From contig JAOARG010000033.1 of the NCBI GenBank assembly GCA_025210655.1, positions 29,122 through 93,121 on the forward strand: a stretch of DNA of 64,000 nt, in the 5' to 3' direction. Below are positions 1,925-64,000 of the stretch, piece by piece. How positions within the stretch are numbered: the first letter of the stretch is position 1; the number at the start of each line of letters is the position of its first letter. This DNA is from Bacillota bacterium (GTDB lineage: Bacteria; Bacillota; Clostridia; Peptostreptococcales; Acidaminobacteraceae). The notes beneath the pieces were generated by a model, which ran no database searches, was not told where the DNA came from, and saw nothing but the letters and a program-made list of their open reading frames with translations. The position numbers and the translations under genes were made by a program.

Positions 1925-2112
1925 TTGCCTGCCTAATGTAGCCTAATGCTACTTTCTATCGCGCCTAACCCCTTATTCTCAGCTGGCCTAAGGTTGTTTT
2001 ACAGGACATTTATTTTTCTTTTTGAAAAGTAAATGTCCTTAACAATATTAGGCTAATTGCTAAGCAATGATTCGGCGCAAACCATGGGAGCTTTAGGCAA
2101 TATTAGGCAGTT
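1925..2112. repeat. GCCTAA/TTAGGC fishbone repeat, copy 1 (family A)
   Basis: GCCTAAT, GCCTAATGCTA, GCGCC and GCCTAA in the left half are matched in reverse order by TATTAGGC, GGCGC, AGCTTTAGGC and ATTAGGC in the right half. A long central hairpin has arms ACATTTA / TAAATGT. The same element, better preserved, lies at 40222-40402. No open reading frame is seen. It sits between the adhE terminator and the family B repeat that ends the aminotransferase gene. Confidence 0.7.
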
Positions 2113-2115
2113 AAT

Positions 2116-2300
2116 ACCACTCCATATATAATTAATTGCTACACTAAAAGGAGCTACTTCAACTTTGGTCTTAAAATATAAAGACCCCAAAACAAGTCTG
2201 GCCTGTCAGATAAGTACCGCTAATATATGGCCTGATTTATCCTAAAAGGATGCTTTTAATAGCCACTCAAGCTCTTGACCTTCCGACCTACCACCTACGA
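2116..2300. repeat. Dispersed repeat, family B copy 1
   Basis: The sequence from ACTCCATAT through GGAGCTACTTCAACTT, AAGTCTGGCCTGTCAG, CGCTAATATATGGCCTGATTT, GGATGCTTTTAATAGCCACTCAAGCTCTTG to CCGACCTACCACCTACGACC closely matches 53863-54060, 50 kb away. The right edge overlaps the last codons and stop of the minus-strand aminotransferase gene. Its central part contains a small inverted repeat GGTCTT...AAGACC. Confidence 0.8.
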
Positions 2301-10674: not shown

Positions 10675-10977
10675 TTACACCTAGCATAACCTTAGGTCAT
10701 AGTCTGGCCACCCTTTTAGTGAGCCCAGCTGTTACTTTGCAACTTATAAATTGTTATTTTACTTTTGTAAAATCGAATCTAAAAAAAGGCCTTTGAAAGA
10801 AAATCTCTCAAAGGCCTTATATTTTATTCAAATAAGTTTTCCCAAGGAAAACAACCTTGGTCGGGCTATAAAATAGTCCACTAGACGTAAAACTGAAAAA
10901 TAAGTTTTACACTAGACGATTAGCCGAAGCTAATCACTAGACGTGAGTTTTCTCAAAGAAAACAAACACTAGACCAT
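10675..10977. repeat. CTAGACG fishbone array, copy C1
   Basis: The right part (10880-10977) is the clearest example of the unit structure: TAAAAC…GTTTTA, ATTAGC…GCTAAT and GAGTTTTC…GAAAAC are separated by ACTAGACG words. The left part carries degenerate counterparts (ACCTAGC, AGTCTGG, GAGCCCAGC) and a terminator hairpin. It fills the whole gap between the convergent yibE/F and chemoreceptor genes, ending 2 bp from the latter's stop. No coding sequence is seen. Confidence 0.8.
10781..10822. terminator. Bidirectional terminator within array C1
   Basis: The stem AAGGCCTTTGA / TCAAAGGCCTT has an 11-nt loop, with an A-run before and TTATATTTTA after. It can stop both yibE/F (plus) and chemoreceptor (minus) transcripts. 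Confidence 0.75.
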
Positions 10978-10979
10978 AT

Positions 10980-13343
10980 CTACCCTATCTTTAAATCCCT
11001 AAAATCTTTAACCTTAGAATTAGATCTCAAATGGAACTCATCTACCATTCCATTTAGCATTTCCAGTTGAGCGGCTATCTCTTCGCTTATTGAGGCACTT
11101 GATGTTGCTGATTGTGAGTTGGTTTGGGTCACGTCTGATATTTCTGATATTCCCTCTTTTATCTGTTTAGCTATCTCTGCCTGCTCAACTGAATCATTGC
11201 TTATATTAGAAACAATTTCATTAACACTTGATATTCCACTCATCATTTTATTTAAAGCTTCTGAAGTCTTCCTAGCAATTGATGTTCCAGATTTTATAGT
11301 TTCTGATGATTCTTGAATTAATGCTTCTGTCTCTTTAGCAGCATTTGCACTTTGTGATGCTAAATTTCTTACTTCTTCAGCAACTACTGCAAATCCTTTT
11401 CCATGCTCCCCAGCCCTTGCCGCTTCTACCGCAGCATTAAGAGCCAGTATATTTGTTTGGAATGCAATATCATCAATTACTTTTATTACACTAGAAATCT
11501 GATGGGATGAATTTTCAATATTCTCCATTGACTCCATCATTTCTCTCATTTGCTCAACACCATTTTGAGCACTCAGGCTAACATCAGAAGATAAATTACT
11601 TGCTGTTACTGCCTGGTCTGCATTTTCCTCAGTTTTAATTGATACTTGATTCATAGATGAACTCATCTCTTCTATAGCACTTGCCTGCTCTGTAGCTCCC
11701 TGAGATAAACTCTGGGCAGAATGGGCAACTTCATCAGCACCAGTACTAATACCTGAAATAACTTCCTTTATTTCAAAGAATATTTCATTATATGAATCAA
11801 GAATCATATTTATTGATCCTTTAATTTCTTTAAAATCGCCAAGATACTCCCTTTCTATCCTTTGATTAATATTCTTCTTTGCCATACCTGTTAGTACCCT
11901 GTTAATATCCTCAATATAACTAGAAACAGTTCCTATTGTAGTATTTAGGGATTCTTTAATCTTACTGTGGTCTCCCCTATAGTCTCCAGTTACTTTAACA
12001 TCAAGTCTACCTTGAGAAAACTCCTCTAATACATCTTGAGCCTCTTTAACCGGTAAAGTAACTGCATCCAGTATACTATTTACACCGTGAATGATATCTT
12101 TGTATTCTCCCTTATGCACTCTTTCATCAGCTCTTGAATCAAGTTTACCTTCTACCCCATCATCAATAAGCATCTGAGTATCTTTTAATAGACCATTTAT
12201 AGAATCAATACATCCATTTATACTGTTTTTTATTCTTTCAAAATCTCCATTATATTTCCTATCAATTTTTTGAGGAATATTCCCATCACCAATCTTAGTA
12301 ACATAATCAACAGTTAGATGAATAGGCTCTGAATATAAATCTAAAATCTGATTAAGTCCAGTAATCAATGCCTTCCATTCACCTTCAAACTTTTTGTCAT
12401 TAGCTCTATTTTCTATATTACCTTCTTTTACAGAATCGATAATAGTTTCAAGTTCTCCTCTTAAGTTCTTTAATGTGTGATTCATATTTATAAGTGCCTT
12501 ACCAAGGGTATCCTTATCAGATTCCATTGTAATATCCACGTCAAGATTTCCTTTTGAAAAACTATCAACAGCATCTACTTTAGACTTCAGACCAGCTATC
12601 ATTTGATCAAATGACCTAGATAAATCTGAGAACTCATCTTTTCCCTTAGTATCAATATCGAAATCCAAATCTCCAGTTCTTGCAACTTCCATATATTTAA
12701 TAAGCTTATTAACAGGTCTAGTAAATCTTCCGGTCATTATAGCAACAACAATTATAGATAATAATAAACCTAAGGCATTAAATATTATTGTACTGTTTCT
12801 AAAATCAGCAACCATTGCATCATAGAAACTATTTGGAACACCAACATACCATATTCCTATTACCTCTCCTGCCTTATTTTTTATTGGTTCATATGCTGTT
12901 TGGTTCCATGTATCATATACAAATGCCTTACCAATAAATCTTTCACCATCCCTTAGTACCTTATCAACAATGACCTGAGATACAGTTGTATCTACAGCAC
13001 GTCCATCAATATCCCCTTCTTTAGGTACATTTGTAGCTACCCTAGTGTTACCCATAAAAATTGTAACAGTGTCACCTGTCAGATTACCTATGTAGTCAAC
13101 CACATCATAATTTCTATATAAGGCTACATCTCCTTTAAATAACTGACCATCTCTAATTGACCAATCTCCCGGAATTTCCCTGTCTAAAATAGACTTTCCA
13201 GTTTTCAAATCAGAGATAAGTTTTTCCTGAGCTGCAGCAATCACTTTCCCATGCATAGTATTTACTGAATATACACCAAGAGTTATATTTGAGATTAAAA
13301 ACACAATCACAAATAAAATAATCATTTTCCCCTTAAATTTCAT
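10980..13343 (-). CDS. Methyl-accepting chemotaxis protein with Cache sensor and repeated HAMP-like modules
   Basis: A transmembrane chemoreceptor. One helix at about 5-27, an extracytoplasmic Cache-type sensor (including [16 protein letters not shown] and [12 protein letters not shown]) and a second helix near 190-210 are followed by a HAMP domain. An unusually long series of HAMP-like segments (about 215-510; GNLDVDI, GNIENRA, GNIPQKI, GKLDSRA, GRLDVKV) links to the signalling coiled coil. The kinase/CheW contact tip is [37 protein letters not shown], here broken only by its normal length. The start is the ATG at 13343; the upstream ATG at 13349 is one base from the GGAGG site and is unlikely. 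No che genes are nearby. Confidence 0.92.
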
Positions 13344-13445
13344 TCCCATACCTCCAATATTTATTAAACGAATCCCCCGATGATAAATATCTACCCACAG
13401 AACAATTACATATTCATATCATTTGGTTAAGATATGGTTAGAAAA

Positions 13446-39962: not shown

Positions 39963-40200
39963 GAGACATTCAGTTGATGTCTCGTCTAGTGAAACGTTAA
40001 TTTCATTACATTTCGTCTAGTAGTTTTATTTTATAAAACCGTCTAGTGTAAAAAATCCACTTTCTTTTCACGTCTAATGCTATTACTTGGTATTAGCGAC
40101 CTAGGTACCCTTGCTAAGGCAAGCTTTTAATTCAATTTATTTTCCGCTGGAAAATTTCCTTGGTCATACTTCTTAAGAAGTATACTAGACGTAACACCTC
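39963..40200. repeat. CTAGACG fishbone array, copy C2
   Basis: The left half carries CGTCTAGT words between hairpins (GAGACAT…ATGTCTC, GAAAC…, AGTTTTAT…ATAAAAC, TGCTAT…TATTAGC). The right half has CTTGC…GCAAG, TTTTCC…GGAAAA and ATACTTC…GAAGTAT ending in ACTAGACG. The CCTTGGTC-hairpin-ACTAGACG junction is shared with copy C1 and, as CGGTCGGA-hairpin, with copies C4-C6. Confidence 0.78.
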
Positions 40201-40221
40201 TATTCTTATAGTTAGCTGTGT

Positions 40222-40402
40222 TTATACTGCCTAATGTTGCCTAAAGCATACTCTGATCGCGCCTAATTTTTGCTTTGCAATTAGCCTAATATTGTTATAA
40301 TGTCCTCGTATTTCAAAGAAATACAAGAGCACCTAGAACAACCTTAGGCTAGTTGCAAAGCAAAAATTAGGCGCGATCGAAGCAGCTTTAGGCTATATTA
40401 GG
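40222..40402. repeat. GCCTAA/TTAGGC long palindrome, copy 2 (family A)
   Basis: The block folds into one very long stem: GATCGCGCCTAATTTTTGCT… in the left half pairs with …AGCAAAAATTAGGCGCGATC in the right, flanked by GCCTAAAGC / GCTTTAGGC and GCCTAA / TTAGGC, with a tip hairpin GTATTTC…GAAATAC. It ends 3 bp before the fchA stop codon. Copy 1 is at 1925-2112. Confidence 0.82.
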
Positions 40403-48004: not shown

Positions 48005-48350
48005 TGATGACTGTTATTATCAGTCCATTTAATCTATCGCTGAAAAGAGGAACCGCACTAGACTAGTTTAGTGCTAGGAGAATCGTTTTGCATGCAAAAC
48101 TAGGGGAATCAATATTGTGAACAATATTTAGGAAAATGGGAAAATCTTAAAGACCTAAATCCCTTCCCTTTTCCCCTAAGTTTGCCAAGCAAACTGCTTC
48201 CCCCAGCACAAAATTGTGCGATTCCCCTTTTCCCCCTAACCACTATCAACCGCCCCCATCCCAACTGCTTTTCTCCGCAAAGAAACAAAAGGATGCTTTT
48301 TGTTACACAAAACCATAATTTCAAACTGAATAGGAACATTTTCAATTAGA
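48005..48350. repeat. TAGGGGAATC fishbone array (family E)
   Basis: Hairpins GACTG…CAGTC, GCACTA…TAGTGC, GTTTTGC/GCAAAAC, AATATTGT/ACAATATT, GTTTGC…GCAAAC and GCACA…TGTGC are separated on the left by TAGGAGAATC, TAGGGGAATC and TAGGAAAATG. On the right the separators are TTTTCCCCTAA, GCTTCCCCCA and GATTCCCCTT, the reverse complements. The centre (TCTTAAAGACCTAAATCCCTTCCC, 48146-48169) recurs at 48492-48515. A 78-codon open frame inside has no ribosome binding site. Confidence 0.8.
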
Positions 48351-49984: not shown

Positions 49985-50004
49985 AAAATACATAAACGAA
50001 AATA

Positions 50005-50096
50005 TCCATCTCCTTACGTTGGCATTACCCATGTCAAGTTAAAGGGTCTGGACCGCATTAGATCCACTCTCAGCCTGAAGACACAAGCTCCCCTGT
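50005..50096 (-). promoter_or_regulatory. TPP riboswitch (THI element)
   Basis: On the minus strand the hallmark segments appear in order: GGGGAGCTT, GGCTGAGAGTGG, a variable arm, GACCCTTTAACTTGACATGGGTAATGCC-type core and AACGTAAGGA. The downstream genes are thiT and tenA, and a terminator follows, so it is a classic transcription-terminating thiamin switch. Confidence 0.92.
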
Positions 50097-50156
50097 ATAT
50101 GAAATTATGATTATTATACTATCTTTTGATAAGTATGTCTATACATTCAAAATCAA

Positions 50157-53859: not shown

Positions 53860-54060
53860 TCACTCCATATGAATGTCATAACTTTCCTGAAAGGAGCGAC
53901 TTCGACTTACAGTCTTAAATTTTCCCGACCCAAAACCAAGTCTGGCCTGTCAGTAAAGGACCGCTAATATATGGCCTGATTTGTCCTATAAGGATGCTTT
54001 TAATAGCCACTCAAGCTCTTGAACTTCCGACCTACGAATCACGACCTACCATCTACGAAT
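53860..54060. repeat. Dispersed repeat, family B copy 2
   Basis: It matches 2116-2300 almost base for base in blocks, such as AAGTCTGGCCTGTCAG, CGCTAATATATGGCCTGATTT, GGATGCTTTTAATAGCCACTCAAGCTCTTG and TTCCGACCTACGA. Confidence 0.82.
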
Positions 54061-54545
54061 AATTTACTGAAAAATCACTCCATATATCTGTCACAACTCT
54101 ACGGACAGGAGCGACTTCAACTTAGGTCTTTGAAATCCATCTCCACGGTTAAACTAATTTATAAGCTAGTATTTCAATTTGAAGTGTTTCTATTCAAATT
54201 GAAGATACGGTTTTGTATTGCAAAAAGCCTCCTTTAACGTCCCACTGAGAAAATCAGTTGACTCAGGGACTTGCCCTTCCGACCTACGAATCACGACCTA
54301 CCATCTATGAATAATTTACTGATAAATCACTCCATATATCTGTCACAACTCTACGGACAGGAGCGACTTCAACTTAGGTCTTTGAAATCCATCTCCACGG
54401 TTAAACTAATTTATAAGCTAGTATTTCAATTTTAAGTGTTTCTATTCAAATTGAAGATACGGTTTTGTATTGCAAAAAGCCTCCTTTAACGTCCCACTGA
54501 GAAAATCAGTTGACTCAGGGACTTGAACTTCCGACCTACCACCCA
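54020..54545. repeat. Family B variant, two tandem 252-bp units
   Basis: The stretch beginning GACCTACCATCTA(C/T)GAATAATTTACTG recurs with a period of 252 bp (54042 and 54294) and only a few differences. Each unit begins like family B (ACTCCATAT, ACGGACAGGAGCGACTTCAACTTAGGTCTT). A different middle follows, with the hairpin TTTCAATTTGAA…TTCAAATTGAA and GTCCCACTGAG…CTCAGGGAC. The right edge overlaps the stop of the diguanylate cyclase gene. Confidence 0.85.
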
Positions 54546-58079: not shown

Positions 58080-58463
58080 ATGAATAATTGGATGATCGCA
58101 GGAATAGTCGTAGTAATCGTAATAGGTGCCCTAGCTGCCTTATATTTCAATAGAAAAAGAGGTATGGAGCAATTATTTCAACATGTGTATGACAATGCGA
58201 GACAAGTACCAGGCAAAAAGAGAAAAAGCTTTTTATTATTTATGTTTAGAGAGACAATAACAACACCAAGAAATAAGAAAAAAGCAGCTGCACACGCAAG
58301 CAAGCTTAACAATAGAGTATACGTAGAAACTCAAATGGTTAAAATGACTAACATATTAAAGGATACATCAAAAGTTACAGACAAAACTATTAAAAGAGCT
58401 CTTACAATGCTTCAACAGTACTATATCTGGGAAAAAGCAAAGAGAGAAGAAGAGAAGAAGTAA
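58080..58463 (+). CDS. Small membrane-anchored basic protein, unknown
   Basis: Not recognised. It has 127 residues with one N-terminal helix (4-22, IAGIVVVIVIGALAALYF) and then a strongly basic, helical cytoplasmic part (21 or more Lys/Arg) with NARQVPGKKRKSFLLFMFRET and a charged end. AAGGAG precedes the ATG and a strong terminator follows, so it is a real single gene. It could bind nucleic acid or acidic lipids at the membrane. Confidence 0.7.
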   Translation: MNNWMIAGIVVVIVIGALAALYFNRKRGMEQLFQHVYDNARQVPGKKRKSFLLFMFRETITTPRNKKKAAAHASKLNNRVYVETQMVKMTNILKDTSKVTDKTIKRALTMLQQYYIWEKAKREEEKK

Positions 58464-58469
58464 TTACAA

Positions 58470-58503
58470 AAACTCATCAGGATATTCCTGATGAGTTTTT
58501 TTC
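58470..58503 (+). terminator. Terminator of the 58080 gene
   Basis: The stem AACTCATCAGGA / TCCTGATGAGTT with an ATAT-type loop and T7 follows the stop by 8 bp. Confidence 0.9.
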
Positions 58504-58870
58504 GTCTAGTGCTTATTTGATACTCAAATATCGCGTCTAGTCTGAATGTTACATCCAGGTCTAGTGAAAAACTTTAACCCCATGTTTTTCGTCAAGTATA
58601 CTTCCTTTGGTAGTACGACCATTGATATTTTTCGCTTTTAGCAAATAAATCTCCTTTCAAAAAATAAACTGTCCATATAAAAATCTATAGATTTTTATAT
58701 GGACAGAAGATCTTATACTTCAATTATAATTTTACGAAAGTAAAATCTCCCCGGACAGAATTTCTAAGAAATTCGATTAGACGAAAAACGAATCTATGAG
58801 TTTTTTACTAGACCGGAATCTATAGATTTCGACTAGACGTAATGTTTTCAAAAGAAAACACACACTAGAC
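58503..58870. repeat. CTAGACG fishbone array, copy C3
   Basis: The left half uses CGTCTAGT (three times), the right half ATTAGACG, ACTAGACC, ACTAGACG and ACTAGAC. Hairpins on the right are GAATTTC…GAAATTC, GAAATC-type AATCTATAGATT and GTTTTC…GAAAAC. The central hairpin CTGTCCATATAAAAATCT… (58669-58706) and the following AACTTCAATTATAATTTTAC are the conserved core shared with C4-C6. The last word overlaps the first base of the neighbouring gene's stop codon. Confidence 0.85.
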
Positions 58871-60348
58871 TAACTAAAAACCTCACCCGAGTAATATCCC
58901 GAAACAAGTGTCTTCGCCCCACTATTACCCTTATACATAATCTTAAGTTTCCTAAGGCCCACAAGTCGATAAAGTGGTCCCTGTATCAAGGATATTTGGT
59001 CTATTTCACTATAATCAATTGTTTCCCTTATTATTCTAAAGACACCTTTTTGGATTACAATGCTCTCTTCCGTTACATGTAATCCTTCATTTAGGTATCC
59101 TAAAAAAGGATTTAATAAAGCTAGACAAGTTGAGATTATATAAATGTACATTCTCCAATCTTCAAAGAATCCACTTAACATATATCCAAGGGATATACAT
59201 ACAGTAAGACTTGGTATAAGGGATATGAAAAGTACCTTTACTGACTGTTTCATATAGCTATTTTCCAGTTGATATTCAGGAAGAATTTTCGATAAATAAT
59301 CATCGAGCTCAGTATTTTTCATATATAAGCTCATCATTTGGTTTTCGGATTTATCATTACCAACACCTACAGCTGTAATTCTTAAGGCAGTGTATCCAAA
59401 CATCCTTGAGAAAAGACTTTGTTTTGAGCCTATTCCTGTTATCTTATTTACCGGTATTGTGAATCTATCAGTATTCATCATCCCATACTGTATTTCTAAA
59501 TGATCCCCTTCCCTTTTACAAGAGAAATTGATTTTTTCATTTAGACTTTTAGCTAGATCATATACACTTCTTAATATAATGAATAAAGCAACTATTCTAC
59601 CCTTATCCTTCATTTCCGAAAACATCATAAATAAGGCAAATCCAAAGAATAGTATAGAAAAAATTGAGATATCGAATACAGAATGTCTTATACCTTCCCA
59701 AGGTGTAAAATTTCTTGTATGAGATTGACCGCTATAGCTTCCCTTTTTAGAAAGCCCACTTATTATTGATCTATCAAAAATATTTTTAAAATTGATTCTC
59801 TTAATATTTTCAACACATGCAGTAAAGTCTTTGTGTTCCTCACTTGCTATATTTGTCTCATCGGCTAAAACTTCTTCCACCACTTCATTACTAGTTTTCA
59901 AAGAAAGTATTTCCTTTATTCTTTCCGCCTCATTCATTGACAGAAGTATTTCAAAATCAGTCTCCTTAGCAGTATGGGAAGAACTAATATCAATTTTAAC
60001 TTTTCCTATAGAAAATACTTTATCTAAAAGAGATCTCTCTAGATTGATATTACTTATCTGAGAAAGCCTTACCTCTTTATTTTTCTTTCTAAACAATCCC
60101 CTATATTTATAGTTGAGATATCCATTTGAAATAGTATATATAGTATTCTTCCACTTTATATAGGCATTCGTCGTTACAAGAATAAGTAAAAAAGAAACTA
60201 CTGCAAGTATTATAAATACAGCACCACCCTCTTCAAAAATATTCACCTTATCAATCAACCTAGCTAAAAATATAGCAACAGCAATAAAAAGACCTATGAT
60301 TTTCTTAAAAATAATCAGCACATGATTCCTAAACTCAACTCTTTCCAT
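58870..60348 (-). CDS. Bacterial PH-domain membrane protein, YdbT type
   Basis: A 492-residue protein with three bacterial PH (bPH2) units, each after paired membrane helices: about 60-150 (YTISNGYLNYKYRGLFRKKNKEVRLSQISNINLE), about 270-345 (IQYGMMNTDRFTIPVNKITGIGSKQSLF) and about 425-490 (VIQKGVFRIIRETIDYSEIDQISLIQGPLYRLVGL). This matches Bacillus YdbT. Its role is unknown, though the YdbS/YdbT pair has been tied to resistance to antimicrobial peptides in bacilli. It overlaps ydbS by 14 bp. Confidence 0.85.
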   Translation of the reverse strand: MERVEFRNHVLIIFKKIIGLFIAVAIFLARLIDKVNIFEEGGAVFIILAVVSFLLILVTTNAYIKWKNTIYTISNGYLNYKYRGLFRKKNKEVRLSQISNINLERSLLDKVFSIGKVKIDISSSHTAKETDFEILLSMNEAERIKEILSLKTSNEVVEEVLADETNIASEEHKDFTACVENIKRINFKNIFDRSIISGLSKKGSYSGQSHTRNFTPWEGIRHSVFDISIFSILFFGFALFMMFSEMKDKGRIVALFIILRSVYDLAKSLNEKINFSCKREGDHLEIQYGMMNTDRFTIPVNKITGIGSKQSLFSRMFGYTALRITAVGVGNDKSENQMMSLYMKNTELDDYLSKILPEYQLENSYMKQSVKVLFISLIPSLTVCISLGYMLSGFFEDWRMYIYIISTCLALLNPFLGYLNEGLHVTEESIVIQKGVFRIIRETIDYSEIDQISLIQGPLYRLVGLRKLKIMYKGNSGAKTLVSGYYSGEVFS

Positions 60349-60838
60349 TTAAGCTATCCTCCTGGGCAAAACCATTGATATAAGACTTCAGCCTCTCCGA
60401 AATAACACGCCCTTCCTCAATAGACAAATACTCCACAGTCATTTCACCACCAGAAGTGATTACAAGTAGACTTGATAACTTAAACAGTCTGTTAAAAAAA
60501 CTCTCCTCAAGCTCAATTTGCTGCATCCTATGTATAGGAACAATTTCATGACTCTTAGTAAAAATACCAGATATCTTTTCAACCGAATCCTCAGTCACCC
60601 TATATCTATATCTAGAATATCCAAGAGTAGGTTCAAGTAAAGTATCAAGAATCAAATATGTAAAAGCAATCTTAGAAAGAAGTATAGCCACATTCTTCAC
60701 CGTATAAGGAAAAAAATCAACATTCTTTATAATCAGTAAAGCTATCACAATTCCTCCAGAAAAAATCAAGTTCCACATAAGACCACTTAAAAACATATTA
60801 AACCTAGCCCTAAAGGGCAGTTTTTTAAATTCATTCAT
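60335..60838 (-). CDS. Bacterial PH-domain membrane protein, YdbS type
   Basis: A 167-residue partner of the YdbT-type protein: two membrane helices (about 18-65) then one bPH2 domain (YRYRVTEDSVEKISGIFTKSHEIVPIHRMQQIELEESFFNRLF). Translational coupling to the next gene suggests a membrane complex. It begins only 48 bp downstream of fishbone array C4, leaving little room for a promoter. Confidence 0.85.
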   Translation of the reverse strand: MNEFKKLPFRARFNMFLSGLMWNLIFSGGIVIALLIIKNVDFFPYTVKNVAILLSKIAFTYLILDTLLEPTLGYSRYRYRVTEDSVEKISGIFTKSHEIVPIHRMQQIELEESFFNRLFKLSSLLVITSGGEMTVEYLSIEEGRVISERLKSYINGFAQEDSLNGKS

Positions 60839-60885
60839 ATATTATCCTCCATATCATTACTTCAATTATACTATATTTTATTGGT

Positions 60886-61258
60886 ATAAACAGCTGGAGC
60901 TGTTTAGCCTAGCATTAGCAATGCTAATAATCCAGCCGTATCTTGTATACGAGCCCAGCCATGTCTTTTAACATGAGCCCAGCGAATCTCATTGAGATTC
61001 TAGTGCAAGGTTATTTTTTGCTCTTCGATCAAATAAATTTACTTTCAAAAAAATCTTCCAACGAAAAATCAATAGATTTATCATTGGAAGAAGATCTTAA
61101 ACTTCAATTGTAATTTTACGTAGGTAAAATGTCATAGGACGGACTTCATAGTGAAGTCTACTAGACATAAAACACGGTTACACGTTTCATACTAGACGAC
61201 TTTGCTAAGCAAAGACACTAGACGAAATACTGAACAACGTAAAGTATTTCACTAGACT
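60886..61258. repeat. CTAGACG/AGCCCAGC fishbone array, copy C4
   Basis: Left half: AAACAGC…GCTGTTT, ATTAGC…GCTAAT, GTATAC-type and CATGT…ACATG, GAATCTC…GAGATTC, separated by AGCCTAGC, ATCCAGCC, AGCCCAGC and AGCCCAGC. Right half: GACTTC…GAAGTC, AAAC-type, CTTTGC…GCAAAG and GAAATAC…GTATTTC, separated by ACTAGAC words. Core hairpin 61055-61090 and AACTTCAATTGTAATTTTAC follow. It begins 14 bp after the nitroreductase stop at 61272 (reading minus). Confidence 0.85.
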
Positions 61259-61271
61259 ATACTCTATATAA

Positions 61272-61958
61272 TTACACCCACTCAACAACTGAATGCATAG
61301 GCTGCCTCGCCTTAGGATAGTGACTATCTTCCTTCTTATATCCAAAGGCAGCCATTACAGAAACACCGAATTGATTTCTATCAATAAGGCCCTCAGCTTC
61401 AAGAAGTTTTTCCACATTTTCCTTTTCAAATCCTTCAATAGGACAAGAATCTATACCAATTTGAATAGCCGCATTCATCATATTTGCAAGGGCAATATAT
61501 ACCTGTCTACTGGACCAATCAAATACCTTTCTATCATCAGTTAGATCAAATTCATTTTCCATAAAGTTCTTATAATGATCAAACTTTGTCTGTTCAACCT
61601 TTGCAGGCAATCTGTATATATCCCTAGATATATACCTTAAAAAATTAGAATCAGGTGCCATATCCTGTGATTTCCTAGCCAGCAATATCATAAAATGACT
61701 AGCAGATTTAAGCTGCCTCTTAGCACCCCAGCTAAGATCATGAATCTTACTTCTCATTTCATCACTTTGAACAACTAAAAACTTCCAAGGTTCAAAACCA
61801 AAAGAACTAGGAGAAATCCTTGCAACCTCAAGAATAAACTCAAAATCCTCATCAGAAATCTTCTTATCTTCCTGAAAAATCTTAATAGCCCTTCTTGAAT
61901 ACAAAGCATCAATCAATTCTTTCCTCTTATCCATACAATTATGCGCATAGCTCCCCAT
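61272..61958 (-). CDS. Nitroreductase-family flavoprotein, copy 1
   Basis: A 228-residue FMN-dependent oxidoreductase: SRRAIKIF near the start (FMN phosphate arginines), ISPSSFGFEPWKFLVVQ, and SCPIEGFEKENVEKLL with AAFGYKKED near the end, as in the NfsB/YdgI group. It probably reduces nitro compounds or quinones with NAD(P)H. It is a paralogue of the 62408 gene, including the same leader AGAAGGGAGTAGC-ATG. The array C4 follows its stop and C5 precedes its start by 30 bp. Confidence 0.9.
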   Translation of the reverse strand: MGSYAHNCMDKRKELIDALYSRRAIKIFQEDKKISDEDFEFILEVARISPSSFGFEPWKFLVVQSDEMRSKIHDLSWGAKRQLKSASHFMILLARKSQDMAPDSNFLRYISRDIYRLPAKVEQTKFDHYKNFMENEFDLTDDRKVFDWSSRQVYIALANMMNAAIQIGIDSCPIEGFEKENVEKLLEAEGLIDRNQFGVSVMAAFGYKKEDSHYPKARQPMHSVVEWV

Positions 61959-61988
61959 GCTACTCCCTTCTTAAACGTGTTGGTTTTT

Positions 61989-62396
61989 ATACCCCGAAGG
62001 GGTGCAATTTACTCTGTAAATTGTAAACAGCTTAGCTGTTTGGCCTAGCATTAGCCACTCTAATAGCCCAGCTATATCTTGGATACAAGCCCAGCCATGT
62101 TTTTTGACATGAGCCCAGCGAATCTCTTAGAGATTCTAGTACAAGGATATTATTTACTCTAAGCAAATAACTTTTATTTCAAAATAAACTTTCCATGCAA
62201 AAATCTATAGATTTTTGCATGGAAAGAAAGACCTTAAACTTCAATTGTAATTTTACCTAGGTAAAATATCATCGGTCGGACTTCATAATGAAGTCCACTA
62301 GTCATAAAACACGAACACAAGTTTTATACTAGACGACTTTGCATGGCAAAGGCACTAGACGAAATACTAAACAAGGTAAAGTATTTCACTAGACCA
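61989..62396. repeat. CTAGACG/AGCCCAGC fishbone array, copy C5
   Basis: The most complete copy. Additional left hairpins CCCC…GGGG, CAATTTAC…GTAAATTG and AAACAGC…GCTGTTT precede the series ATTAG…CTAAT, CATGT…ACATG and GAATCTC…GAGATTC with AGCCCAGC separators. Core hairpin 62189-62226, then GACTTC…GAAGTC, AAAAC…GTTTT, CTTTGC…GCAAAG and GAAATAC…GTATTTC with ACTAGACG separators. Nearly identical to C6 over 250 bp. Confidence 0.88.
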
Positions 62397-62407
62397 CGAC
62401 CTAAAAA

Positions 62408-63100
62408 CTACACCCACTTCACAACCTTATCAATAGTTTGCCTAGTATTAGGATAAGGGCTATTCTCACTTCTATAACCAAAAGCAACCATAGCAGCTAC
62501 ACCAAAGTGGTCAGTATCTACAATACCCTCTTTCTTAAGAAGCTCTTCAGCCTTTAATCTGTCAAATCCTTCAATAGGACAAGAATCTATATTGATTTGA
62601 GCTGCTGCAGTCATCATATTTGCCATAGGTATATAAACCTGCTTACTAGCCCAGTCAAATAATTTTCTATCATCAGTTAGATCAAACTCATTTTCTTGGA
62701 AGTTTTTAAAGAAACCTATTTTCATTTCTTCAATCTCTGCTGGCAAATTATCCACTTCTTTTGAAATATAACTTAAATACTCTGATCCAGGTCTCATATC
62801 ATCTGCTTTTCTAGCCAGCAAAACTACAAAGTGACTAGCAGATGCTAATTGCTTTTCAGCACCCCAGCTAAACTCTGACAACTTACCTCTTATATCCTGA
62901 TTTTGAACAACAAGAAACTGCCAAGGCTCCCATCCAAATGAACTAGGAGAAAGTCTACCTACTTCAAGAATAAAGTCAAAATCCTCTTTAGAAATAATTT
63001 TATCCTTTTCAAACACCTTAATAGCTCTTCTATACTTAACCGCCTCTAGAATCTCATTTTTCTTACTCATATATTTTATGTGCATGACACTCCTTATCAT
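62408..63100 (-). CDS. Nitroreductase-family flavoprotein, copy 2
   Basis: A 230-residue paralogue of the 61272 gene with the same motifs: YRRAIKVF, LSPSSFGWEPWQFLVVQNQ, SHFVVLLARKADDM, and SCPIEGFDRLKAEELL. The two share long identical stretches, so they arose by tandem duplication with their leaders. Two starts are possible: the ATG at 63100 (GAAGGGAG) or at 63085 (AAGGAG); homology to the paralogue begins after both. It is divergent from an HxlR regulator, which probably controls it. Confidence 0.9.
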   Translation of the reverse strand: MIRSVMHIKYMSKKNEILEAVKYRRAIKVFEKDKIISKEDFDFILEVGRLSPSSFGWEPWQFLVVQNQDIRGKLSEFSWGAEKQLASASHFVVLLARKADDMRPGSEYLSYISKEVDNLPAEIEEMKIGFFKNFQENEFDLTDDRKLFDWASKQVYIPMANMMTAAAQINIDSCPIEGFDRLKAEELLKKEGIVDTDHFGVAAMVAFGYRSENSPYPNTRQTIDKVVKWV

Positions 63101-63173
63101 GCTACTCCCTTCTTATTAGATAATAAATATTATTAAAACACCCTAATACAAATAACTCTCAATAGTTTTTTCT

Positions 63174-63195
63174 GTAAGCTTACTTATGGTACAAT
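63174..63195. promoter_or_regulatory. Dyad and -10 element between nitroreductase and HxlR genes
   Basis: The perfect palindrome GTAAGCTTAC (63174-63183) is directly followed by TTATGGTACAAT, whose TACAAT (63190-63195) fits a -10 box for the HxlR gene. The dyad is placed where an HxlR-type repressor could block both divergent promoters. Confidence 0.45.
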
Positions 63196-63265
63196 AGTAG
63201 CATCAAAAAGGTCTGACTGAAAAGTATGCACTTTAATGTTAGATACTAAACAAAAGGTGAGAATT

Positions 63266-63619
63266 ATGAAAAATACAGGTGTTCAGGAAGAAAATAAATT
63301 GAGGGTAACATGCCCAATGGAATATGCAATGAACAAAATAGCTGGAAAATGGAAGCTAGTAATCCTATGGCATATATACGATCAAGAAGTAATAAGATAC
63401 GGAGAACTACAAAGACTTCTAGACAAAATATCCCACAAAATGCTAAGTAATCAACTAAAAGAACTACTAGCCGACGGAATAATCCACAAAGAAGTATACA
63501 AAGAAATACCACCAAAAGTAGAATACTCCCTAACAGACTTTGGAAAAACACTAATCCCAATTATGGATTCCCTATTCGCTTGGGGACAGGAGAATAGACC
63601 GGATATGACGGAATTATAA
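63266..63619 (+). CDS. HxlR-family winged-helix regulator
   Basis: A 117-residue regulator: CPMEYAMNKIAGKWKLVILWHI, the recognition region SHKMLSNQLKELLADGIIHK, and the wing PPKVEYSLTDFGKTLIPIMDSL. The cysteine in VTCPMEYA is in the position used for redox or electrophile sensing in this family. It is divergent from the nitroreductase pair, a usual target of HxlR regulators. The ATG at 63266 has AAAGGTGAG upstream; the ten codons before it are not supported. Confidence 0.9.
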   Translation: MKNTGVQEENKLRVTCPMEYAMNKIAGKWKLVILWHIYDQEVIRYGELQRLLDKISHKMLSNQLKELLADGIIHKEVYKEIPPKVEYSLTDFGKTLIPIMDSLFAWGQENRPDMTEL

Positions 63620-63624
63620 ACTAC

Positions 63625-63886
63625 TTGGCTAGCATTAGCTCCTCTAAATAGCCCAGCTATATCTTGGATACAAGCCCAGCCATGTTTTTTGACATGAGCC
63701 CAGCTAATCTCATAGAGATTCTAGTACAAGGATATTATTTACTCTAAGCAAATAACTTTTATTTCAAAAATAAACTTTCCATGCAAAACTCTATAGACTT
63801 TTGCATGGAAAGAAAGACCTTAAACTTCAATTGTAATTTTACCTAGGTAAAATATCATCGGTCGGACTTCATAGTGAAGTCCACTA
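63625..63886. repeat. Fishbone array copy C6, interrupted
   Basis: The left half and core match copy C5 nearly base for base (AGCCCAGC words, core hairpin 63775-63812, AACTTCAATTGTAATTTTACCTAGG). The match stops after GACTTC-ATAGT-GAAGTC-CACTAG at 63886, where the intron-like sequence begins; the expected continuation seen at 62303 is absent. Confidence 0.85.
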
Positions 63887-64000
63887 GTGTTTGCGAGGCA
63901 TGTTGCCGAGCCGATGGGTTGTAAGAAGCCCTTTTACCCAGCCAATGGGGAAGAAAAGTTGTAAGCAAGGGCGTATCTGGTGACAGATGGGTCTGAAGGA
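63887..64000 (+). mobile_element. 5' end of a group IIC intron (runs off the window)
   Basis: GTGTTTGCGAGGCATG resembles the 5' end of class C introns such as the Oceanobacillus one (GUGUGCCCGGCAUG, from memory). GCAAGGGCGTATCTGGTGACAG followed by TCTGAAGGA matches the conserved domain I segment GCAAGGGTGT…GGCGACA…TCTGAAGGA. It starts 5-7 nt after the hairpin GACTTC/GAAGTC, as expected for IIC introns, which insert after stem-loops. The reverse transcriptase would lie beyond the edge. Confidence 0.75.

Follow-up and report, generated by a model that had tools for sequence, protein, structure and literature searches.

The window, the whole stretch of 64,000 nucleotides analysed here, is a part of contig C68 in a 3.94-Mb assembly that is 92.9% complete. 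It carries a series of elements (C1 to C6) in which short fixed words alternate with small hairpins, and a member of a second family. These features and their parts are as follows.

10723–10974, no strand assigned: element C1, mixed, composed of an F arm at 10860–10974 (−) and a partial GCTGGGC-class arm.
39984–40190, no strand assigned: element C2, composed of an F arm at 39984–40100 (+) and the inner part of a second arm.
48078–48260, no strand assigned: member of the second family with the word AGGGGAA(TC)/(GA)TTCCCCT, an unrelated family with the same build.
58504–58870, no strand assigned: element C3, with facing GTCTAGT-class arms at 58504–58619 (+) and 58754–58870 (−), between convergent genes.
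58669–58706, no strand assigned: central hairpin of C3, in a slot equal to 62189–62226 in C5 and 63775–63812 in C6.
60886–61257, no strand assigned: element C4, with a left GCCCAGC-class arm, a centre and a right GTCTAGT-class arm (read on the minus strand).
60906–60983, plus strand: left words of C4, namely AGCCTAGC (60906–60913), ATCCAGCC (60930–60937) and AGCCCAGC (60952–60959 and 60976–60983), with hairpins in between.
61138–61257, minus strand: F arm of C4, with four GTCTAGT words and hairpins 1–4 (covariance-model match of 75.6 bits).
61160–61166, 61191–61197, 61217–61223 and 61251–61257, plus strand: right words of C4, ACTAGAC.
62021–62394, no strand assigned: element C5, the second element of the initial annotation.
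62275–62394, minus strand: F arm of C5 (covariance-model match of 80.5 bits).
63625–63888, plus strand: element C6, the portion aligning with C5; it stops at the fourth word, where a group II intron is inserted.
63889–64000, plus strand: 5′ end of the group II intron, inserted as ACTAGT^C.

Three of these elements lie immediately past stop codons: the right edge of C4 is 14 nt past that of the gene at 61272–61958 (−), the F arm of C5 starts 13 nt past that of the gene at 62408–63100 (−), and the F arm of C1 is 5 nt past that of the gene at 10980–13349 (−). The two genes in the region 61272–63100 belong to the nitroreductase family and are related (73% DNA identity over 300 bp), and behind each of them comes a fishbone element. 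C4 and C5 are themselves homologous, with 86% and 89% identity over two repeat blocks, and thus are not independent examples; C5 and C6 are near-identical (96% over 263 nt), but their surroundings differ. The window also contains a TPP riboswitch at 49994–50104 (−) and, at 54009–54512, a 252-bp near-perfect tandem duplication (97%) within a larger intergenic repeat family (GACCTACGAATCACGACCTACC), which also occurs at 2265.

The initial annotation described C4 and C5 as arrays of differing hairpins set between fixed words, and both elements are built in that way: the hairpins inside one copy are mutually unrelated in sequence, and the folds are far better than those of shuffled sequences. As RNA, C4 folded at −121.6 (z −9.1) on the minus strand and −95.4 (z −5.4) on the plus strand, and C5 at −131.9 (z −9.7) and −106.7 (z −8.1), respectively; none of 100 dinucleotide shuffles was as good for either element. 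The minus strand was accordingly the better-folding one in both. Its account of the right words, ACTAGAC four times, is exact for C4, while C5 has ACTAGTC once and ACTAGAC three times, facing left words that consist of GGCCTAGC and three copies of AGCCCAGC. When all four word pairs were forced on the minus strand, the cost over the free optimum was 4.8 kcal/mol for C4 and 6.3 kcal/mol for C5, the elements whose values were used (the C3 values, which lie below the free optimum, were left out).

The difference between the strands had been taken as a sign of selection on a minus-strand RNA. This conclusion finds no support in that form, because GTCTAGT and GCCCAGC differ by T/C transitions only, so that one strand with G-U pairs and another with A-C mismatches arise whenever an element combines an arm of each class. 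Elements of one class fold about equally well on both strands (−129.1 and −127.9 for the element in locus L261; −117.5 and −119.5 for C3). By our own reading, the sense strand for the facing gene among seven mixed elements is the G-U strand in two (C4 and C5) and the A-C strand in two (L268 and C6, the latter with its far side beyond the contig end), and it is undefined in three, all at convergent sites (C1, L259 and L274:5882).

The unit of this family was found to be the arm, consisting of four words with a hairpin after each. In the genome, 108 pairs of GTCTAGT words lie at a distance of 12–40 bases, as compared with none for the reversed control pattern, and therefore the arrangement is not due to chance. 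Counted inward from the outer edge on the GTCTAGT strand, the median word-to-word distances are 30, 25 and 33 (quartiles 28–31, 24–26 and 31–34); past the fourth word, the fourth hairpin is followed by a G(A/T)CC word, in most cases by a further, fifth hairpin, and finally by the centre. Outside the hairpins, the conservation at ranks 1–4 is confined to the 7-nt word, with the consensus GTCTAGT. The word classes are GTCTAGT, GACTAGT and GCCCAGC, with GCCTAAT in addition in L283, a weak model match. The covariance model R1 and the alignment A1 were made from 16 of the 49 arms first extracted, picked for their similar hairpin lengths. R1 gave 99 matches in the genome at E up to 1 and, in the 469 kb of loci fetched around matches, 103 matches up to E 0.01, among which 92 scored at least 40 bits; all counts out of 92 refer to the latter arms, two of which overlap on opposite strands in L273. 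The centre of the two-arm elements varies, and in the element at 2969–3744 of L267 it holds no hairpin but an open frame that is about 120 codons long. For 41 of the 92 arms, including that of C2 with its remnant of a second arm, a partner was not detected within reach. Thus, the fishbone is seen in C4 and C5 but is not the basic unit.

A single RNA comprising the whole element, in which the paired words form a long main stem and hairpins project to either side, would explain why C4 and C5 fold very stably on the minus strand and come near the full fishbone. It would also suit the agreement of the words between arms and the two-arm build in the second family, both described below. Nevertheless, the partnerless arms and the sense strand of the mixed elements, which is not consistently the G-U one, argue against this explanation, and we consider it unlikely.

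The letters of the hairpins vary freely while their pairing is kept. Among the 92 arms, the median pairwise identity is 0.86 in the words and 0.46 in the stem columns, and 137 of the 4186 arm pairs exceed 0.8 stem identity, so most copies are deeply diverged. In the alignment of 103 arms, which was fitted to R1 and hence leans towards structure, 90.3% of the cells are paired, as compared with 58.0% when partners are shuffled. The covariation score there is 0.715 vs 0.184 for shuffled partners (0 of 500 shuffles reached it) and at most 0.107 when the partners are slid; 28 of 28 pairs changed on both sides, which was equalled by 14 of 500 shuffles. The covariance model, proposed as a check in the initial annotation, thus captures a real structure with strong covariation. 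A1, which was aligned with MAFFT using no structure (16 arms), gave a similar contrast (0.680 vs 0.177). Column-free shuffling of partners in 49 arms yielded 6.16 of 7 pairs vs 3.03 (sd 0.20) for the middle hairpin, 6.41 of 7 vs 4.05 for the inner one, and 5.35 of 9 vs 4.23 for the outer one. The copies share ancestry, and these counts are not independent. Hairpin pairing is 0.883 in single arms and 0.897 in two-arm arms (p 0.18), and since the former are as well paired as the latter, the hairpins of single arms appear to be kept where they sit.

Covariation would also be produced, with no selection on folding, if template switching during replication rewrote one side of a hairpin from the other and the words were ordinary protein sites. 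The changes found on both sides of a pair far outnumber the standard pairs changed on one side (120 vs 2, in 16 arms), which is in line with this process. However, it fails to give the rank-fixed lengths, the strand bias and the conserved mismatch of the outer hairpin (see below), and such mutational upkeep seems improbable.

As for the proposed pairing of words across the element, the letter at the second word position is the same in 65 of 76 comparisons from 19 facing arm pairs, as compared with 44.1 when arms are re-paired randomly (0 of 2000 trials as high). Without two doubtful pairs, L273 (overlapping matches) and L283 (weak), the values are 58 of 68 vs 43.7 (4 of 2000). The hairpins of facing arms are barely more alike than those of random arms (0.595 vs 0.562, sd 0.017). 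The word alphabets differ between elements and mostly agree within one. The word match to GTCTAGT or GACTAGT is 0.949 in 36 arms of two-arm elements, 0.982 in 6 mixed arms and 0.910 in 41 single arms (two-arm plus mixed vs single, p 0.0008), nine arms near contig or stretch ends (0.813) being kept apart. Facing words therefore agree beyond chance and are better kept when a partner arm exists, while they also persist without one; this combination fits direct recognition of the words together with pairing across arms.

Hairpins kept as folded single strands are expected to show G.U/G.T and G.A mispairs on the acting strand. Symmetric scoring of 324 distinct hairpins, with duplicates removed, gave 81 A.C vs 31 G.T and 131 T.C vs 12 A.G on the GTCTAGT strand, which is equivalent to an excess of G.U and G.A on the ACTAGAC strand. 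The favoured strand is thus ACTAGAC, which is read outward from the centre and, in the case of the C4 and C5 F arms, is the plus strand (the bias derives from F/A arms). The single arms behave in the same way (A.C 42 vs G.T 14 and T.C 60 vs A.G 2 on the GTCTAGT strand). In hairpin 1, the outer one, T.C outnumbers A.G by 63 to 3, so that 63 of the 131 T.C mispairs belong to one conserved mismatch, which is best taken as a motif. When 206 hairpins were extracted in a cruder way, the counts on the ACTAGAC strand were 35:25 for G.T vs A.C (p 0.25) and 66:4 for A.G vs T.C, and the GCTGGGC-class arms lean likewise (9:3 in 88 hairpins, p 0.15); all these p-values are optimistic, since the copies share ancestry. 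No bias was found in the AGGGGAA family (3:3) or in a first count on 49 arms (21 G.T vs 23 A.C). The ratio of A.C to G.T is 28:3 at convergent sites and 12:6 at co-directional ones (Fisher p 0.058), and the bias has no clear link to opposing transcription. Wobble pairs make up about 3% of the pairs on the favoured strand, a low value for an RNA, and the data fit either DNA or RNA as the folded molecule. Facing arms favour opposite strands; no single RNA can therefore have both arms in the favoured sense, which is a further argument against the whole-element RNA.

The strand preference may be considered together with the group II intron. Its 5′ end lies at the ends of four contigs (C82, C68 at window position 63889, C12 and C9), and its 3′ end at the ends of four others (C78, C80, C48 and C43). 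The 3′ end matches RF00029 with 43.5 bits against a threshold of 40, which assigns the intron to group II, and a reverse transcriptase was not found in the assembly (92.9% complete). All eight junctions found interrupt the fourth word, as ACTAGT^C on the ACTAGAC strand, next to hairpin 4: the four 5′ junctions follow hairpin 4, and the four 3′ junctions precede hairpin 3. The number of four copies is deduced, because the assembly leaves the 5′ and 3′ ends unlinked, and since C43 and C48 have a flank in common for over 100 bases, one site may be duplicated. Class IIC introns are described as recognising a DNA stem-loop adjoining their site (PMC10190682, in part), and here a stem-loop immediately precedes the insertion site on the strand that carries the intron. 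This recognition and the location of the junctions suggest that hairpin 4 can fold as DNA on the ACTAGAC strand. A group II intron finds in this family a landing site that is both predictable and repeated.

The arms are positioned at gene edges. In the following counts, which have no random-position baseline, a gene is an open reading frame of at least 100 codons, defined by this rule and not by annotation. On the side of the outer word, the gene reads towards the arm in 62 of the 92 arms and away from it in 27, and none is present in 3. A facing stop codon lies within 60 nt of the outer word in 51 of the 92 arms (one overlaps its arm by 61 nt), and seven stop codons overlap the first base of the word; on the inner side, a facing stop codon is found within 66 nt in 5 arms. 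Several two-arm elements, C3 included, sit between convergent genes. Among the 41 single arms, the outer edge is within 60 nt of a facing stop codon in 16 and within 150 nt of a gene start in 12, while the inner edge has a stop or start within 150 nt in 4, its distance from genes being partly due to the arm's own tail. A count of terminators failed to separate the arms from the control: they occurred on the inner side in 57 of 85 cases, in the same stretch read backwards in 51 of 85, and on the outer side in 46 of 85.

These features lead us to propose, tentatively, that an arm may be a strand-specific barrier: transcription coming from the intergenic side would be kept out of the gene at the arm's outer edge. 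The ACTAGAC strand would fold as RNA within transcripts that proceed outward and enter the adjacent gene, which would be antisense transcripts at stop codons and read-through transcripts at start codons. The chain of hairpins would stall or end such transcription, a protein would read the words, and in two-arm elements the words might also pair with each other, closing the fishbone. Pairing, length, strand and word all appear to be kept where an arm sits, and a barrier with a word-reading factor is the simplest account drawing on all four. Clusters of hairpins after stop codons have been proposed as terminators (PMC8355165, in the portion concerned). On the other hand, termination alone needs no fixed word, which speaks against the barrier, as do the small share of wobble pairs, the weaker wobble bias of the cruder extraction, the lack of a clear link between the bias and opposing transcription, and the terminator count.

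The distribution of the family and its neighbours in the genome bears on a second explanation. R1 found no match in 40 other members of the family of this bacterium or, among the best 9 candidates per genome, in 392 genomes sampled from the order; for 397 genomes sampled from the phylum, again among the best 9 candidates per genome, there was one 30.5-bit match with two words and no array. Nine of the genome's own arms appear in the order and phylum scans. Few candidates were scored in these two scans, and all three scans of relatives used Infernal's stricter filters, so that faint or divergent copies may have escaped. A search for arrays built on any word gave no convincing array in 758 kb of eight relatives: 3 were found vs 2 in one shuffle for 358 kb of seven genomes, and 48 vs 13 for 400 kb of genome G012, where the words are A/T-rich by eye with none in common. 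Our own loci, selected because they contain words, gave 119 vs 6. A three-word scan returned 85 stretches in genome_contigs and 104 in viral_contigs; the hairpin filter, applied to all 85 and to 80 of the 104 (L150–L229), left tandem repeats and weak cases, with no word-hairpin array by eye. Plasmids and phages had no match at E 1e-5. Unrelated GTCTAGT arrays with a spacing of about 21 bases were observed in Thalassobacillus, Piscibacillus and Aquisalibacillus (L071, L075, L085, L096, L113, L118, L129, L136 and L138); their spacers are variable and A/T-rich, with no clear hairpins.

Within the genome, the second family, with the words AGGGGAATC / GATTCCCCT, forms 14 clusters in our own loci (48078–48260 and 13 more). 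By our own reading, the word occurs in both orientations in 9 of the 14, arranged as two facing arms with intervening hairpins. The existence of this family means that the fishbone plan is not tied to one word family. In addition, GCCTAA/TTAGGC word-hairpin palindromes were observed at window positions 1980–2150 and 40220–40400, the latter following C2, and at 776–940 of L283. They are apparently another alphabet of the same plan, a third example.

In the second explanation, an arm is a mobile DNA site similar to a REPIN or attC: the ACTAGAC strand would fold single-stranded, and an enzyme would read word and shape, the complete unit being two inverted arms and the single arms remnants. This explanation, though doubtful, is nearly as likely as the barrier, and the two can be combined if a once mobile site was retained as a boundary. 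The near-identity of C5 and C6 in different surroundings, the single word class of facing arms, the variable centre with the open frame of L267, the failure of R1 to find the family in the 40 family members and the 392 order members (best 9 candidates per genome), and the strand bias common to single and two-arm elements all accord with it. So do the less conserved words of single arms, REP singlets being described as less conserved than doublets (PMC3116915, in part). Three genes resembling REP-associated tyrosine transposases (RAYT-like; L368, L369 and L370 on contigs C71, C42 and C76) score 61.4–71.1 bits, below the NF047646 cut-off of 80, and have flanking repeats of their own, twice of the GGGGTCAGG type and once a TAATAAAAATTAAAT...GCATCC mini-element. 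GTCTAGT-class arrays are absent from 5.5 and 6 kb around two of these genes, and the nearest to the third is about 3.1 kb off. A RAYT was therefore set aside as the enzyme for the arms. An integron integrase was rejected as well: there are four tyrosine recombinases, and the best TIGR02249 score, in XerD, is 146.8 against a cut-off of 265 (genome 92.9% complete). Neither a target duplication nor an empty site was seen in an unsystematic look, and the hairpins of single arms show no decay while most copies are deeply diverged, which also tells against a mobile site. Apart from this, a mini-element like that of the C71 transposase was seen by eye to have inserted into or close to hairpin 4 of fishbone arms in L271 (2899–3003), L263, L279, L280, L289, L350, L353 and L358.

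As a rule, a dispersed bacterial repeat is known by its letters. In this family, about 90 copies in one genome keep pairing, length and strand while the letters of their hairpins vary. It is conceivable, although we hold it with considerable reserve, that they represent a genomic repeat of a new kind that is written in shape: a short word with free hairpins, one strand of which is read by a factor, in at least four interchangeable alphabets (GTCTAGT, GACTAGT, GCCCAGC and GCCTAAT), with the unrelated AGGGGAATC family at the same build in the same genome. If the barrier at gene edges is indeed read by shape, it would be an unusual way to write a repeat. The copies are a rare data set on selection for the shape of DNA or RNA and on what reads shape.

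As regards the statement that no described repeat class is known with this build, neither Rfam nor searches of the open literature gave a match, but REPINs share a part of the logic. At gathering score, Rfam identified only the TPP riboswitch in the window, and only sub-gathering matches in 58400–64000; the open papers include REPINs, REP families, stem-loop families and TAACTGA repeats, but no word-hairpin array of such a build. Like the arms, REPINs and REP doublets are inverted doublets between genes, with conserved blocks, a spacer kept for its length and its hairpin, and compensatory changes (as far as described in PMC3116915). The better conservation of an inverted doublet was found here for the words, whereas the hairpins do not differ. 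Unlike REPINs, the present family has a 7-nt word, GTCTAGT, of which an arm contains four copies, every one followed by a free hairpin, in place of a 16-mer with a GTAG or CGTC tag (tags as named in the title of PMC3733652), and its words flank no RAYT gene. The attC sites and their group IIC-attC introns resemble it in the location at gene 3′ ends, the few conserved letters, the action of one strand and the insertion of introns against the gene direction (parts of PMC7923331 and PMC3053210). However, an attC site has an R″/R′ core (R′ GTTRRRY) and one long hairpin (PMC7923331, same part), whereas an arm has four separate hairpins between direct GTCTAGT repeats, is dispersed at single genes and is accompanied by no integron integrase above the cut-off. 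The TAACTGA heptamer repeats of Beggiatoaceae are likewise fixed seven-letter words in intergenic DNA, but they lie mostly upstream of start codons, and the portion of PMC4679880 concerned describes no hairpin between the words. Finally, BIME, BOX, ERIC and other stem-loop families are also structured intergenic repeats dispersed in one genome (PMC2267715, in part); the survey in that paper clustered them by sequence similarity, whereas the members of the present family, with a stem identity of 0.46, were gathered by a structure model.
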